A stretch of 64,000 nt of DNA. Origin: Granulicella sp. (GTDB taxonomy: Bacteria > Acidobacteriota > Terriglobia > Terriglobales > Acidobacteriaceae). Both the position numbers and the translations under genes were made by a program. Of the stretch, positions 47,907 through 53,159 are shown piece after piece (within the stretch, counting starts at the first letter, position 1; each line of letters starts with the position of its first letter). Where the stretch lies: NCBI GenBank assembly GCA_025408425.1, contig JANXYX010000001.1, positions 186,001 to 250,000 of the forward strand, given 5' to 3'. Below the pieces are notes generated by a model. It worked only from the letters and a program-made list of their open reading frames with translations. It searched no databases and was not told the DNA's origin.

Positions 47907-49178
47907 ATGGCTGGTGCGATTGAGATTCTGTTTACGCTGCTGACTTTGAGTGGGTTGGCTTATCTGTTGATTGCGCTGTGGAGCGCGCGGGACTTCTCGC
48001 ACTACTGGGCGAAGGTGCGGCGGGCTGGTGGGGTGGCTGGGGGAAGTGCAAGTGCAAATGCAGGTCCTTCGACTGCGGCGGCAAAGAGCGCCGCCTTCGC
48101 TGAGGATGACAATTTATTTGAAGGGGGAGAGCAGAACTGTCCTGGGGTTTCGATTTTGAAGCCGGTGAAAGGGAGCGATCCGCGGATGTATGAGGGGTTT
48201 GTGAGCCACTGCAAGCAGGAGTATGCAGGGGAGTTCGAGCTTGTGTTTGGGGTGACTTCGCTGGATGATCCGGCGGTGGCTGAGGTGGAGTGGCTGCGGG
48301 GGGAGTTTCCGGAGGTTGCGATCAAGCTGGTGGAGTGCCGCGAGCGGCTGGGGACGAGCGGGAAGGTGAGCAACCTGGTGCAGATGCTGCGCGAGGCGCG
48401 GTATGAGCATGTGTTGGTGAACGACAGCGACATCTTTGTGGGGCCGCGGTATCTGGCGCGGGTGATGGGTTCGTTTGCGGATGCGCGGGTGGGGATGGTG
48501 ACGGCGCCTTATCTGGGGAGGGCGATTGCTGGCGCGGATGGGCGGATTACGGTGTGGTCGCGGCTGGAGGCGCTGGGGATTTCGACGGATTTTATGCCGG
48601 GGGTGCTGACGGCTCGACGGCTGGAGGGTGGGATATGGTTTGGGCTGGGTTCTACGCTGGCTACGACGAAGACGGCGCTGGCGAAGATTGGCGGGATGGA
48701 GTCGCTGTTGGAGTGTCTGGCGGACGACTATGAGATGGGGGCGAGGATTGCGGCGGCGGGGTATCGGGTGGAGTTGTCGGACGAAGTGGTGGAGACGACG
48801 GTGCCGGCGTATGCGTTGCGGGGTTTCTGGGAGCACCAGATGCGGTGGGCACGGACGACGCGGGACTCGCGGAAGCTGGGGTATGTGGGGCTGGGGATTA
48901 CGTATGCGGTGCCGTGGGCTTTGATGACGATGGTGGCGAGCGGGTTTGCGCTGTGGAGCTTTTCGCTGTTGAGCGTGGTGGCGCTGGCGCGGGTGGCGGT
49001 GGCGTTGAGCGTGGGAGTGGGCGTGTTGCGGGACGAGCAGGTGCTGCGGGATTTGTGGTTGCTGCCGCTGCGGGATTGCTTTGGGCTGGTGGTGTGGGCG
49101 TGGAGCTTTGCGGGGGACACGGTGATTTGGCGAGGAGAACGGTTTCGTCTGCGGGATGGGCGGATGGAGCGGGTTTAG
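47907..49178 (+). CDS. hpnI: HpnI-like hopanoid glycosyltransferase (GT2, ceramide-glucosyltransferase type)
   Basis: 423 residues. N-terminal membrane helix, GT2 catalytic domain and C-terminal helices. Motifs: PGVSILKPVKGSDPRMYEGF, the acidic VNDSDIFV (DxD-like), LADDYEMGARI and HQMRWARTTRDSR, which is the form of the (Q/R)xxRW motif in this family. HpnI adds N-acetylglucosamine to bacteriohopanetetrol during composite hopanoid synthesis. Other hpn genes are not adjacent, so the assignment rests on sequence character only. A family GT2 ceramide glucosyltransferase-like enzyme is the fallback. Confidence 0.82.
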   Translation: MAGAIEILFTLLTLSGLAYLLIALWSARDFSHYWAKVRRAGGVAGGSASANAGPSTAAAKSAAFAEDDNLFEGGEQNCPGVSILKPVKGSDPRMYEGFVSHCKQEYAGEFELVFGVTSLDDPAVAEVEWLRGEFPEVAIKLVECRERLGTSGKVSNLVQMLREARYEHVLVNDSDIFVGPRYLARVMGSFADARVGMVTAPYLGRAIAGADGRITVWSRLEALGISTDFMPGVLTARRLEGGIWFGLGSTLATTKTALAKIGGMESLLECLADDYEMGARIAAAGYRVELSDEVVETTVPAYALRGFWEHQMRWARTTRDSRKLGYVGLGITYAVPWALMTMVASGFALWSFSLLSVVALARVAVALSVGVGVLRDEQVLRDLWLLPLRDCFGLVVWAWSFAGDTVIWRGERFRLRDGRMERV

Positions 49179-49256: not shown

Positions 49257-49709
49257 CTAGTGGGTGGTTGGTGGTTGGTCGACTTCCATGCCGAAGCGCG
49301 AGAGTTCGCGCTTCTGCAGGTGGTAGTCGATGAAGAATCCGATGCCGATGGCGAGCGGGATGAGGCCGGAGGCTGCGACGGCATAGATCTGGTGGACGCC
49401 GATGATCCAGGTGAGGACGCAGCCAAATATGGCGAGGCCGAGGCCGACTGAGGTGAGGATGATTCCGGTGCGACGGGCGTTGCCCAGGCTGCGGAGTGGA
49501 TCTTTGGGGGCGGGGCGATCGTCGTCGTGAGATGCACCGAGGACGCGCTCGATCTCGGCGATGCTGATACCGCGAGCGAGCATGGCCATGCGCTGATCTG
49601 CTTTGACGCGACGGGCCTGGGCCTGGCCCCAGACGCCGGCGATGATGGCGACGATAGGGATGAGCATGGCGACAACGGGGATGATGAATGGGCTGTTGAG
49701 AGCGTTCAT
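49257..49709 (-). CDS. DUF6249-like small membrane protein
   Basis: 150 residues with three hydrophobic helices (about 8-28, 83-103 and 110-130). A cytoplasmic linker carries RMAMLARGISIAEIERVL, the segment seen in DUF6249-type proteins that accompany ECF sigma factors. It is divergent from the sigma factor gene, and the promoters of the two genes have the same sequence and spacing, so it is probably part of the sigma regulon. Function unknown. Confidence 0.75.
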   Translation of the reverse strand: MNALNSPFIIPVVAMLIPIVAIIAGVWGQAQARRVKADQRMAMLARGISIAEIERVLGASHDDDRPAPKDPLRSLGNARRTGIILTSVGLGLAIFGCVLTWIIGVHQIYAVAASGLIPLAIGIGFFIDYHLQKRELSRFGMEVDQPPTTH

Positions 49710-49734: not shown

Positions 49735-49763
49735 TTAGACAGGGGTAGGTAGGGAAAGTTTCA
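49735..49763 (-). promoter_or_regulatory. ECF-type promoter of the DUF6249-like gene
   Basis: On the minus strand: TGAAACTTT (49755-49763), a 14-base spacer, GTCTAA (49735-49740). The GAAAC-type -35 and GTC-type -10 are characteristic of group IV sigma factors. The start codon lies 26 bases beyond the -10 box. Confidence 0.7.
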
Positions 49764-49773
49764 TGGGGATGCG

Positions 49774-49802
49774 TGAAACTTTGGCGGGGGTGTATGGTCT
49801 AA
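49774..49802 (+). promoter_or_regulatory. ECF-type promoter of the sigma factor gene (autoregulation)
   Basis: TGAAACTTT (49774-49782), 14-base spacer, GTCTAA (49797-49802): identical boxes and spacing to the divergent promoter. Transcription would start only a few bases before the ATG at 49815, where no Shine-Dalgarno is seen, so the message may be nearly leaderless. Confidence 0.7.
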
Positions 49803-49814
49803 CTCGACTTGGCT

Positions 49815-50390
49815 ATGGGCGTGGAGATCGACGGCAGTTTCGAGCAAGTGGTTCGGGAGCATCAGGCGCTGGTGTTCAGGACACTGCTGCGGCTGACGGG
49901 GAGCCGGGAGCATCTGGAGGATCTGGCGCAGGATGTTTTTCTGCGGCTGTATAAAGCGCTGCCAGGGTTTCGAGGTGAGGCGCTGGTGTCGACGTATCTG
50001 TACCGGATTGCGGTGAATGTGGCACAGGATGAGTGGAAGCGACGGCGACGGGAGGATAAGCCGCTGGTGTCAATCTCGGATGAGGTGAGTGAGTGGGAAG
50101 ACCGGTTGGAGCATCCGGATGCGAATGCGGAAGAGCAACTGGAGCAGAAGGAGTTTGAGGGGCTGGTGGAGGAGGAGATGCAGCGGCTGAGCAATGTAGA
50201 GCGGGCAGTGCTGGTGCTGTATCACCAGGAGGAACGGACGTATGAGCAGATTTCGCTGGCACTGGGATTGCCGATTGGGACGGTGCGGACGCATCTGCAT
50301 CGAGGACGGAAGAAGTTGAGGGATGGGATTGCGGCGCGGCAGGCGGCAGATGGGAGGAGACATGCAGGACGAATCGATGAAGAGTGCTGA
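49815..50390 (+). CDS. ECF (group IV) RNA polymerase sigma factor
   Basis: 191 residues. Sigma region 2 (FEQVVREHQALVFRTLLRLTGSREHLEDLAQDVFLRLYKAL...STYLYRIAVNVAQDEWKRRRR) and region 4 (QRLSNVERAVLVLYHQEERTYEQISLALGLPIGTVRTHLHRGRKKL) are complete, joined by an acidic linker. It redirects RNA polymerase to promoters of the type found on both sides of its 5' end. The next gene overlaps its 3' end by 29 bases and is the likely anti-sigma partner. The inducing signal is unknown. Confidence 0.94.
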   Translation: MGVEIDGSFEQVVREHQALVFRTLLRLTGSREHLEDLAQDVFLRLYKALPGFRGEALVSTYLYRIAVNVAQDEWKRRRREDKPLVSISDEVSEWEDRLEHPDANAEEQLEQKEFEGLVEEEMQRLSNVERAVLVLYHQEERTYEQISLALGLPIGTVRTHLHRGRKKLRDGIAARQAADGRRHAGRIDEEC

Positions 50391-50724
50391 GAGCGAGTTG
50401 GACGAGGAGCGGCGATTGGATGCGCGTGTGGTGCGGGTGCTGGAGAGAGTTGCGGAGGTGAAGATCTCTGCGGATTTTGCAGCGCGTGTGGCGGGGCTGG
50501 TTCCGGCGCGGCGGGTGATGAGGGAGAGTGTGCGAACGACGCGGATTGGGTACTGGGTGATGGCGGTGAGCCTGGTGGTGTTGGTGGCGGCGATGGTGTT
50601 GGTGGCGGCTTCGAGGAGTCATGGAACGGTTGGTGTGTTGGTGGAGTGGACATTGTGTGGAGAGTTTGTTGGTCTGGCGATGTGGTTGAGTATCTGGCGG
50701 TGGCGGAGCGGGGATGCAAGCTGA
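50362..50724 (+). CDS. Small membrane protein, putative anti-sigma factor
   Basis: 120 residues: a cytoplasmic N-terminal part of about 65 residues (ELDEERRLDARVVRVLERVAEVKISADFAARVAGLVPAR) and two membrane helices (about 72-92 and 97-115). ATG 50362 has GGAGG just upstream and overlaps the end of the sigma gene, which suggests coupled translation. No zinc-binding HxxxCxxC motif of classical anti-sigma factors is present. The role is inferred from overlap and topology. Confidence 0.65.
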   Translation: MQDESMKSAESELDEERRLDARVVRVLERVAEVKISADFAARVAGLVPARRVMRESVRTTRIGYWVMAVSLVVLVAAMVLVAASRSHGTVGVLVEWTLCGEFVGLAMWLSIWRWRSGDAS

Positions 50725-51026
50725 AGCCCTTGATGGGTAAGGACATCGGGAAGTTTTGACGCAGGTCACGGTCGAAACTTCTAGGGGGGACGGTGCCCGG
50801 ATGGGTGTGGTGGAGACAGACGCAGGGAATACTTGGGGAATATTGAGATTGCAGGCAACTAATTCAGTTGGCTGTGCAATTGCTTGCAGAAAGCCGGAAA
50901 CACTACTACGCGATCGGTCCATTGATCACAGTCAACATCGTTCGCCCTGGTTGGCGCATGTGAGTTGTCTTGTGCTTTTTTTTGAGGCGACTTTTGAAAC
51001 CGCAAGAATCTACACGGAGCCGCTCT
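50725..51026. other. Intergenic region after the sigma/anti-sigma pair
   Basis: No supported gene. A CGAAACTTC near 50774 recalls the ECF -35 box, but no GTCTAA follows at the right distance. CGGAG before 51027 serves as the ribosome binding site of the next gene. Confidence 0.4.
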
Positions 51027-53159
51027 ATGGGCAAGAATTTCAGTTCTATCTGCAGCCTGCTGCTGGTTGTTGCGTTTCTCTTGAGTGGTCGGGATGGGTT
51101 CTCTCAAACGCTCGCGCAAGCGCAGAAGATGGGGCTTGGCGTAGGAGCCGGCTTGAACGGCTTCCGTCCGTTTCCGGCGTCTGACGCGTGGAACACGCCG
51201 GTTGCGAATGCTGCGGTTGATCCGAACTCTGCGACGATCATTAGTGGAATCGGCGGGAGTTCTCTGCATCCTGATTTCGGCTCTACTGCGTCAGGGTATG
51301 GCATTCCGTACACCGTGGTGGACTCGTCGGTTACGGCTAGCTCGCCGATCAATTTTGTTATGTACCCCAGCGACTCCGACAACGTGGTGTGGCCGATTGC
51401 ATCCGGAGTTGCGATCGAAGGCTTTCCGGGTAACTGCCCAAGTGACTCGAATGATCGACACATGCTGATTCTGGATCGACACACCGCGTTTCTGTACGAG
51501 GTATGGCAGGCTGCAAATTGCAATGGTGCGTGGAGTGGATCGAACGGCAACATCTGGGACATGACGAAGCCCAGCTATGGGGCGCGGCCTTTTGGGTGGA
51601 CCTCTGCTGACGCTGCTGGTCTGTCGATCTTCGCAGGGTTGCTGACGTATGACGACATTCTGAGCGGAGCGGTCAATCATGCCATCCGGTTCACGCTGAA
51701 CTATACGAAGAACAGTGTTAATGGTGGGTATTTTACCGCTCCGGCAACACATGGGGCGGGCAACAACTCGGCGACCGCGAACATCATGGGGATGCGCCTT
51801 CGGCTGAAAGCGAACTATGACGTTTCGGGATTTTCGCCTACGAATCAGATCATTCTGAATGGGATGAAGAACTATGGCTTGCTGCTGGCGGACAATGGAG
51901 GCAATGGTTTTTTCCAAGGCACGAATGATGCTCACTGGAATGACAACGATCTGAATGCACTGAAGACGGTTCCTCTGTCTGCATTCGATGTTGTGGCGAT
52001 GAGCGCTGCTTATAACACTGCCACCATGCCTACTGGCGCAGCACCGATTATCAGCAATGTAGTTGTGTCACCGAACACGACGGTTTCCGCGGGGACACCT
52101 GTGACGGTGTCGTTTGCTGCAAACAGCACCTACGACTTTATCGACCTGGTTGGTCCCGTTCTGAACCAGACGATTACATTTACGCCGACTTCAACACAGA
52201 CTTATACGATTAATTCTACGAATCAGTATGGGCGTACGACGCAACTGGTAACTGTTACGGTTACAGGTTCGTCTCCTGCACCTACTCCGACACCTGTACC
52301 AACTCCAACGCCGGTACCAACACCTGCACCTGCACCTGTTCCTGCACCTATTCCCACGCCTGCACCGGCACCTGCGTCAATAGTCGCGGCGAATCCTGTG
52401 TTTTCTGTTGCTGCGGGGACCTATAGTTCGGCGGTTACGGTTGTTATGAGTGACGCTACGCCTGGCGCGACGATTCACTATACGACTAACGGGACCAATC
52501 CGACGGCCAGTTCTGCGGTGTATACGAGGCCGTTTGTTGCGTCGTCGACGACAACGGTTGCAGCGATTGCAATTGCACCCGGATATGTTACAAGTTTGGT
52601 GAGCACTGCAACGTATACGATCACTGCCAGTGCGCCTTCGCTGGACTTCACGGTTACGGGGGCCGGATCAGGGAGTCAGACGGTGTTTGCGGGAAGCAGT
52701 GTTAGCTACAGTGTTCTGATCACGCCGACGAACGGCGTCTATCCGGGCGCGGTGGTTTTTGCGGCGAGCGGGCTTCCGGCGGGAGCAACGGCAACGTTTT
52801 CTCCAGCTATGATTCCAGCCAATGGTGGAGCACAGACGGTGAGGATGACGATCGATACGCCTGTTGCTGTTGGAGCGATTCGCAAGCCGTGGTTGGGACG
52901 AACTATTACTCCGGTGGCGTTCGCCTTTCTGCTGCCACTGTTTGGATTGAGGCGGATATCGAAGTATCGAGGGAGCGTGTTGCGGCTGCTCTGCCTGATG
53001 TTGATTGGGTTGAGTGGAGTTGGGGCAACGTCACTTCTGAGTGGATGCGGCAGTGGTGGCATCCTGGGCGGGTTGAATCCGCAGAGCTATACGGTGGTGA
53101 TTGCACCGACGAGCGGAGGGGTGCAGCACACGGTTCAGGTGACTCTTACGGTGCAGTAG
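51027..53159 (+). CDS. Large secreted multidomain protein with chitobiase-C-like domain and internal two-helix GCGSGG tail
   Basis: 710 residues. Signal peptide (MGKNFSSICSLLLVVAFLLSG), then a ~350-residue N-terminal domain I do not recognise (from FPASDAWNTPV). Next are an Ig-like strand region, a Pro/Thr/Ala linker (about 414-451), a chitobiase/beta-hexosaminidase C-terminal-like domain (about 455-531: PGATIHYTTNGTNPTASS) and an Ig-like domain. Two hydrophobic helices (about 620-640 and 650-672) joined by a basic GLRR loop interrupt the last Ig-like domain. They end in LLSGCGSGG, followed by its closing strands. Probably surface-exposed; function unknown. Confidence 0.8.
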   Translation: MGKNFSSICSLLLVVAFLLSGRDGFSQTLAQAQKMGLGVGAGLNGFRPFPASDAWNTPVANAAVDPNSATIISGIGGSSLHPDFGSTASGYGIPYTVVDSSVTASSPINFVMYPSDSDNVVWPIASGVAIEGFPGNCPSDSNDRHMLILDRHTAFLYEVWQAANCNGAWSGSNGNIWDMTKPSYGARPFGWTSADAAGLSIFAGLLTYDDILSGAVNHAIRFTLNYTKNSVNGGYFTAPATHGAGNNSATANIMGMRLRLKANYDVSGFSPTNQIILNGMKNYGLLLADNGGNGFFQGTNDAHWNDNDLNALKTVPLSAFDVVAMSAAYNTATMPTGAAPIISNVVVSPNTTVSAGTPVTVSFAANSTYDFIDLVGPVLNQTITFTPTSTQTYTINSTNQYGRTTQLVTVTVTGSSPAPTPTPVPTPTPVPTPAPAPVPAPIPTPAPAPASIVAANPVFSVAAGTYSSAVTVVMSDATPGATIHYTTNGTNPTASSAVYTRPFVASSTTTVAAIAIAPGYVTSLVSTATYTITASAPSLDFTVTGAGSGSQTVFAGSSVSYSVLITPTNGVYPGAVVFAASGLPAGATATFSPAMIPANGGAQTVRMTIDTPVAVGAIRKPWLGRTITPVAFAFLLPLFGLRRISKYRGSVLRLLCLMLIGLSGVGATSLLSGCGSGGILGGLNPQSYTVVIAPTSGGVQHTVQVTLTVQ

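Follow-up and report, generated by a model that had tools for sequence, protein, structure and literature searches.

Mirrored promoters between an ECF sigma factor gene and a DUF6249 gene in Granulicella: a conserved and probably autoregulated divergon

Introduction

In ECF systems of the RpoE-RseA and SigW-RsiW type, a sigma factor composed of sigma2 and sigma4 has its own -35/-10 promoter and is followed by an overlapping gene for a membrane protein, with probable positive feedback. The locus described here is built alike, but it carries a second, identical promoter, which points in the opposite direction at a near-fixed distance onto a DUF6249 gene. It also differs in the essentially leaderless TTG or GTG start predicted for its sigma gene and in showing no wider regulon by consensus. 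It is unusual for a sigma factor to control only its own divergon.

Back-to-back promoters with a similar start-to-start distance and known polymerase interference are found at lambda PR/PRM. There, the two promoters differ from each other, depend on sigma70 and are under the control of repressors, whereas those of the present locus are identical and, as we propose, read by the product of one gene. The bidirectional promoters of Escherichia coli likewise fire both ways from one element, and mutual exclusion of polymerases is possible there as here; in the five regions studied, divergent starts lie 10-23 bp apart (PMC12825309). Our locus falls outside this range, as it has two complete back-to-back promoters with starts an estimated 77-81 bp apart.

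Class I anti-sigma factors, as far as the available text on them goes (PMC7406223), are similar to the candidate anti-sigma factor of this locus in gene location and membrane anchoring, and zinc-type members have the PxDFxxRV stretch in common with it. The candidate departs from them in having about 50 residues ahead of its first membrane helix, two modelled helices instead of four, and no zinc motif; in the same source, groups mixing zinc and non-zinc members are normal. Autoregulation of an ECF sigma factor is ordinary, while the conserved mirrored geometry appears to be new: no description of it was found among the open-access papers listed for DUF6249 or for ECF sigma factors with divergent, overlapping or bidirectional promoters.

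Results

The window, i.e., the whole stretch of 64,000 nucleotides of Granulicella DNA that was analyzed, contains the following features at this locus.

49257-49709, minus strand: gene of a DUF6249 membrane protein (PF19762), the divergent partner, with its ATG 25 nt past its own -10 box
49735-49763, minus strand: DUF6249-facing ECF promoter, with -35 box TGAAACTTT at 49763-49755, a 14-nt spacer and -10 box GTCTAA at 49740-49735
49764-49773, no strand: 10-bp DNA separating the two -35 boxes, diverged in sequence and near-constant in length among loci
49774-49802, plus strand: sigma-facing ECF promoter, with -35 box TGAAACTTT at 49774-49782, a 14-nt spacer and -10 box GTCTAA at 49797-49802
49809-50390, plus strand: ECF sigma factor gene (sigma2 and sigma4), with probable TTG start at 49809 and alternative ATG at 49815
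50362-50724, plus strand: gene of a small membrane protein of 120 residues without zinc motif, overlapping the sigma gene; candidate anti-sigma factor

The order is DUF6249 gene (minus strand), promoter pair, sigma gene (plus strand) and overlapping small membrane protein gene. The sigma protein matched PF04542 (65.7 bits), PF08281 (53.3 bits) and TIGR02937 (114 bits, cut-off 42.9), and no region 3 model was found with Pfam; with sigma2 and sigma4 but no region 3, it has the domain composition of an ECF (group IV) sigma factor. The divergent gene, which the initial annotation had called DUF6249-like, indeed belongs to this family, as its product scored 42 bits against PF19762, above the gathering score of 33. 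A structural model of the DUF6249 protein (pLDDT 85.6, pTM 0.58) gave no PDB fold match with E <0.1, the best being ExbB at 0.23. No DNA-binding domain other than that of the sigma factor was found in the module with Pfam. Neighboring genes encode a family 21 glycosyltransferase (47907-49178) and, at 50970-53159, a protein of 729 residues that combines a chitobiase C-terminal-like domain with a proline-rich linker.

Both promoter copies were located where they had been reported. The exact motif TGAAACTTT-N14-GTCTAA occurs at two sites in the 4.23-Mb genome, which are the mirrored pair, and the reversed control gave none. With up to three mismatches, the window contained only the two copies, compared with a mean of 0.56 in shuffled sequences and two or more in 7 of 100 shuffles, a comparison that applies to three-mismatch matches and not to exact ones. 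The two -10 boxes are 56 bp apart (49741-49796), and given this distance two holoenzymes on the mirrored promoters would be close to each other.

An orthologue of the sigma factor (E up to 1e-40) was found in 39 of 62 genomes of the genus. The mirrored pair was present in all 39 and in none of the 23 sigma-less genomes, which were screened at up to one mismatch a site. Genomes G063 and G064 have the same sigma sequence, and removal of duplicates by sigma sequence left 38 distinct loci (36 plus L092 of G070 and L097 of G083); all 38 have the pair when up to two substitutions a side are allowed, and it is also present in G064. Between the 38 loci, the boxes were 97% identical on the sigma side and 95% on the DUF6249 side, as opposed to 42 and 33%, respectively, for the spacers. 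The two 14-nt spacers of a given locus shared a mean identity of 24%, which is the chance level and agrees with the earlier statement that they are unrelated in sequence. GTCTAA-type boxes were located 17 nt from each TGAAAC in 36 of 36 loci, with 15-19 nt allowed, and in the two added loci. Judged by sequence, this conserved -35/-10 pair, which lies upstream of the sigma gene and is unique to it, is a putative autoregulated ECF promoter, and the comparison of genomes with and without the sigma factor (39/39 versus 0/23) strongly supports the autoregulation predicted from the window.

The two -35 boxes were separated by 10 bp in 37 of the 38 loci, G070 having 11 bp; for 36 loci any gap from 0 to 40 bp was admitted in the search, and the count covering all 38 admitted only 8-12 bp. 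The sequence within this gap occurred in 34 different versions in 37 loci, with a mean identity of 38%. When the AAGTTTCA / TGAAACTT repeat was searched in the 62 genomes with a gap of 0-30 bp, 34 genomes matched, and the gap was again 10 bp except in G070 (11 bp). One of these 34 genomes is the sigma-less G001 (L091, 1542-1567); near its AAGTTTCA-N10-TGAAACTT inverted repeat there is no match to the sigma factor, the small protein or DUF6249, and GTCTAA is too close to one arm of the repeat for this promoter.

Among 15 genomes of the genus compared for DUF6249, the 11 with the gene have the sigma factor and the four without it lack the sigma factor. G009 (L021, on the same contig as L118) has no small-protein open reading frame and its DUF6249 gene is in pieces, with no whole reading frame; its sigma factor is without some conserved residues and its sigma-side -35 box reads TAAAAC. 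This module (sigma factor, small protein, DUF6249 and sigma-side -35 box) seems to be decaying as a unit, assembly errors being possible in this MAG.

The -35 box varies by lineage (TGAAACTTT, TGAAACAATT, TGAAACCG, TGCAACC and TGTAACAATC), and both copies change together. In the sigma4 recognition helix, T follows K or R in 24 of 24 TGAAAC loci (GTVRTHLHR, GTVKTQLFR), while KA is found in five of five TGCAAC/TGTAAC loci (GTVKARIHR, GTVKAYIHR), a set that comprises perhaps three independent A lineages and in which the box assignments of L194 and L242 are weak. This covariation links both boxes to the sigma factor itself. Together with the conservation of the boxes amid diverged spacers, it argues for the defined sigma consensus proposed earlier and suggests that the boxes are recognized by this sigma factor.

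An in-frame TTG or GTG was found 6-9 nt past the sigma-side -10 box in 34 of the 38 loci (TTG at 6 nt in 22, at 7 nt in two and at 9 nt in one; GTG at 8 nt in nine, two of which also have TTG at 2 nt). The remaining four loci have ATG at 14 nt or TTG at 20, 21 and 23 nt. In 21 of the 38 loci the -10 box itself gives an in-frame stop, which makes an earlier start of the sigma gene impossible there. This is also the case in the window, where the stop is the TAA of GTCTAA and TTG 49809 lies 6 nt after the box. Since the start position is conserved in relatives, this TTG rather than ATG 49815 is probably the start of the sigma gene. Transcription from ECF promoters starts 5-8 nt after the -10 box, so that the sigma mRNA would be leaderless or nearly so. 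The initial annotation had correctly counted 12 bases from the end of GTCTAA to ATG 49815 and had predicted a nearly leaderless sigma mRNA on this basis; the prediction appears to hold in an even stronger form, in which the TTG kept by the relatives probably takes the place of the ATG. For comparison, an average of 13.3% leaderless genes is given for three genomes of Acidobacteria in the accessible part of an older survey (PMC3160421).

On the other side, 34 of the 35 readable loci had DUF6249 leaders of 21-43 nt. The exception is L092, where the start was called automatically at an upstream ATG located 6 nt past the -10 box; this count does not include L014 (contig edge), L021 or L097 (contig end). 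A Shine-Dalgarno-like core was detected in 33 of the 35 leaders, failing in L092 and in the window's own leader, which has the weak Shine-Dalgarno sequence AAAGGCAGG. As a sigma mRNA predicted to be leaderless or nearly so is paired with a DUF6249 leader that usually contains a Shine-Dalgarno sequence, unequal translation from the same promoter is predicted to be a recurrent feature of these loci.

The reading frame at 50362-50724 was confirmed to overlap the sigma gene and to encode 120 residues with long hydrophobic helices, and the absence of the Hx3Cx2C zinc motif from its product was likewise confirmed. A small membrane protein gene overlaps the sigma stop or lies close by in 37 of the 38 genus loci, the exception being L021. 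The protein consists of about 50 residues followed by two long hydrophobic helices and has the consensus LExxPxxxIPADFAARV; that of L038 was left out of the alignment. Three outgroup orthologues (L120, L121 and L125) do have Hx3Cx2C, and its absence here is therefore no argument against an anti-sigma role. The family profile weakly matches proteins of the zinc type whose genes follow other ECF genes (L145, L149 and L191), and a weak profile match to RsiW 53-76 (E 0.44) was also obtained. Matches to TFIIB profiles (E 0.07) were taken as chance. A model of the small protein (pLDDT 78.7, pTM 0.33), which is a weak test, contained only helices H3-29 and H37-46 before the long helices; a fold search of the PDB with it gave no match, and the four-helix N-terminal ASDI domain (three-helix bundle plus helix 4) was not seen in this low-confidence model. 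Because the full four-helix domain was not seen, we infer that the protein is a reduced anti-sigma factor. The earlier assignment as the likely anti-sigma factor is plausible from position and co-occurrence (37/38 loci), and we retain the protein as a candidate.

The own genome yielded 39 matches to the motif at up to three mismatches, including the pair, compared with 66 for the reversed control, i.e., apart from the pair the motif was not enriched. At up to one mismatch, 121 matches were found in the 62 genomes, of which 77 are in pairs and 44 elsewhere, while the reversed control gave 99; a random scatter of the motif, which had been named as the outcome that would speak against the prediction, was thus not observed. 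By hand count, 22 of the 44 non-pair matches read CGTCTAA. They may belong to other sigma factors, since the base before GTCTAA in the 76 paired promoters is G (47), T (24) or A (5) and never C. The same C is found at single exact sites near clpB in two sigma-less genomes, G061 (L093, 1486-1514) and G077 (L094, 1545-1573), which are possibly the promoter of another alternative sigma factor. Other single exact sites are located in G023 (L096), before a serine-hydrolase-like gene, and in G030 (L095). TGAATCTTTTTC...CGTCTAA recurs in five genomes (G014, G065, G076, G009 and G006) and TGAAACCT...CGTCTAA in seven (G061, G077, G078, G075, G034, G018 and G005); both look like promoters of other ECF sigma factors that share GTCTAA but have it preceded by C. 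No orthologous target common to the sigma-bearing genomes was noticed when the single exact sites were read. A wider regulon is not visible by consensus, and targets with weaker boxes are possible.

Among the 80 matches listed in a contig scan with the sigma factor, 17 loci (L112-L128) had at least 53% identity; their records are Granulicella, Edaphobacter, Bryocella, acidobacterial MAGs and one 'Verrucomicrobia', which may be mislabelled. In the latter (L128, Verrucomicrobia bacterium Tous-C9LFEB) the module resembles that of Acidobacteriaceae, due to either a mislabelled bin or transfer. Eight of the 17 loci are on contigs already counted. Of the nine new loci among the matches listed, eight have the pair, with a gap of 10 bp in seven and 11 bp in L126; the ninth, L127, has the sigma factor, the small protein and the sigma-facing box only, with no detected DUF6249 and no mirrored copy.

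Within the phylum, PF19762 matched at 57 places in 55 of 297 genomes; 55 of these places were examined (L192-L246), the other two being genus loci. Outside the genus, the 46 DUF6249 loci comprise 15 in which the gene is divergent from an ECF gene, 15 in which both are on the same strand and 16 in which no ECF gene was found; the last group was left out of the counts of mirrored pairs. DUF6249 lies upstream of the ECF gene on the same strand in L193, L197, L198, L202, L208, L213, L221, L224, L236, L237, L243 and others. DUF6249 is therefore not tied to the divergent layout, and in other acidobacterial lineages the DUF6249-ECF partnership exists without mirrored promoters.

Taking the phylum DUF6249 loci and the contig-scan loci together, there are 28 loci outside the genus in which DUF6249 and an ECF gene are divergent, and in 24 of them TGNAAC was mirrored within 30 bp. 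The gap was 9 bp in two, 10 bp in 11, 11 bp in two, 12 bp in three, 13 bp in one, and 18, 21, 23, 24 and 26 bp in one locus each, which places 19 of the 24 between 9 and 13 bp. The pairs of L194, L206 and L226 have spacings of 52, 59 and 115 bp, and in L242 a pair is absent. Mirrored TGNAAC was found in one of 56 control ECF loci without detected DUF6249 and in none of 18 codirectional DUF6249/ECF loci, which include L223, L232, L239 and L244, where DUF6249 was missed by the profile used. In the one positive control, L136, a divergent hydrophobic reading frame starts directly upstream, at the point where the contig breaks off. The TGNAAC motif was picked after some loci had been seen; a motif-free count (inverted arms of at least 9, gap 4-30) gave a weaker contrast, with 16 of 28 divergent loci versus eight of 56 and one of 18 controls.

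Discussion

Our results make it highly likely that the locus is a positively autoregulated divergon, in which the sigma factor reads both mirrored promoters and thereby drives its own gene and that of a candidate membrane anti-sigma factor in one direction and DUF6249 in the other. Release of the sigma factor by the membrane anti-sigma factor would allow the sigma-RNA polymerase to use both promoters. Rightward transcription of the sigma/anti-sigma operon would provide positive feedback and replenish the inhibitor, while leftward transcription would yield DUF6249, which presumably belongs to this stress circuit as a membrane component. The sigma mRNA would begin within a few nucleotides of the TTG or GTG start and have no Shine-Dalgarno sequence, whereas the DUF6249 mRNA would have a leader. 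Equal boxes combined with unequal translation would give much DUF6249 and little sigma factor per activation.

How the two promoters relate to each other is less certain. They may be two independent autoregulated promoters that are close by chance, the constant gap reflecting only shared descent or tight packing, and we place this just short of an even chance. ECF autoregulation is common, amounting to ~55% of those with predicted targets according to a review (PMC8103513), and the pairs 52, 59 and 115 bp apart as well as the five gaps of 18-26 bp, which follow no single phase, fit such independence. It accounts less well for gap DNA that has diverged and yet kept its length while the leaders on both sides vary in length, and for the prevalence of 9-13 bp in other lineages (19 of the 24 loci with a gap of up to 30 bp).

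Since the -35 boxes lie about one helical turn apart, the relation of two polymerases on them would be fixed, as exclusion or as contact. A spatially coupled double promoter might accordingly exist in DUF6249/ECF divergons across Acidobacteriota and beyond, with back-to-back holoenzymes, typically 9-13 bp between the -35 boxes, and occupancy of one side controlling the other and partitioning the transcripts, in a closed circuit in which the sigma factor serves only its own divergon. We regard this as a rather doubtful extension of the divergon model and have slightly lowered our estimate of it, because the longer gaps (18-26 bp), only five in number and widely scattered, do not suffice to show a second phase.

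An anti-sigma role of DUF6249 in place of the overlapping 120-residue protein is improbable. DUF6249 does adjoin ECF genes even where the sigma factor differs, divergently or on the same strand, but L127 keeps sigma factor and small protein without a detected DUF6249, and it is the small protein that has Hx3Cx2C in outgroup members and a family profile matching zinc-type proteins (L145, L149 and L191). Least probable is an operator role of the inverted repeat AAAGTTTCA-N10-TGAAACTTT, to which a dimeric repressor or activator would bind, the -10-like boxes being incidental: the half-site spacing is nearly constant (37/38 loci), as for a dimer site, and the repeat of G001 occurs without the sigma factor, but the pair tracks the sigma gene (39/39 versus 0/23 genomes), every TGAAAC of the genus loci has a GTCTAA-type box at 17 nt, the box tracks the recognition helix, the module has no DNA-binding domain but that of the sigma factor (Pfam), and gaps outside the genus range over 9-13 and 18-26 bp.

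For a phylum in which regulatory genetics is, in our judgement, scarce, the locus offers a sigma/promoter pair that can be tested. Its orthologues provide a natural series of double promoters, with joint changes in the recognition helix and in both boxes. It also ties the uncharacterised DUF6249 membrane family to ECF signalling. If the near-fixed spacing does reflect contact or exclusion of two polymerases, the locus would be a natural and conserved example of two promoters coupled through identical holoenzymes.
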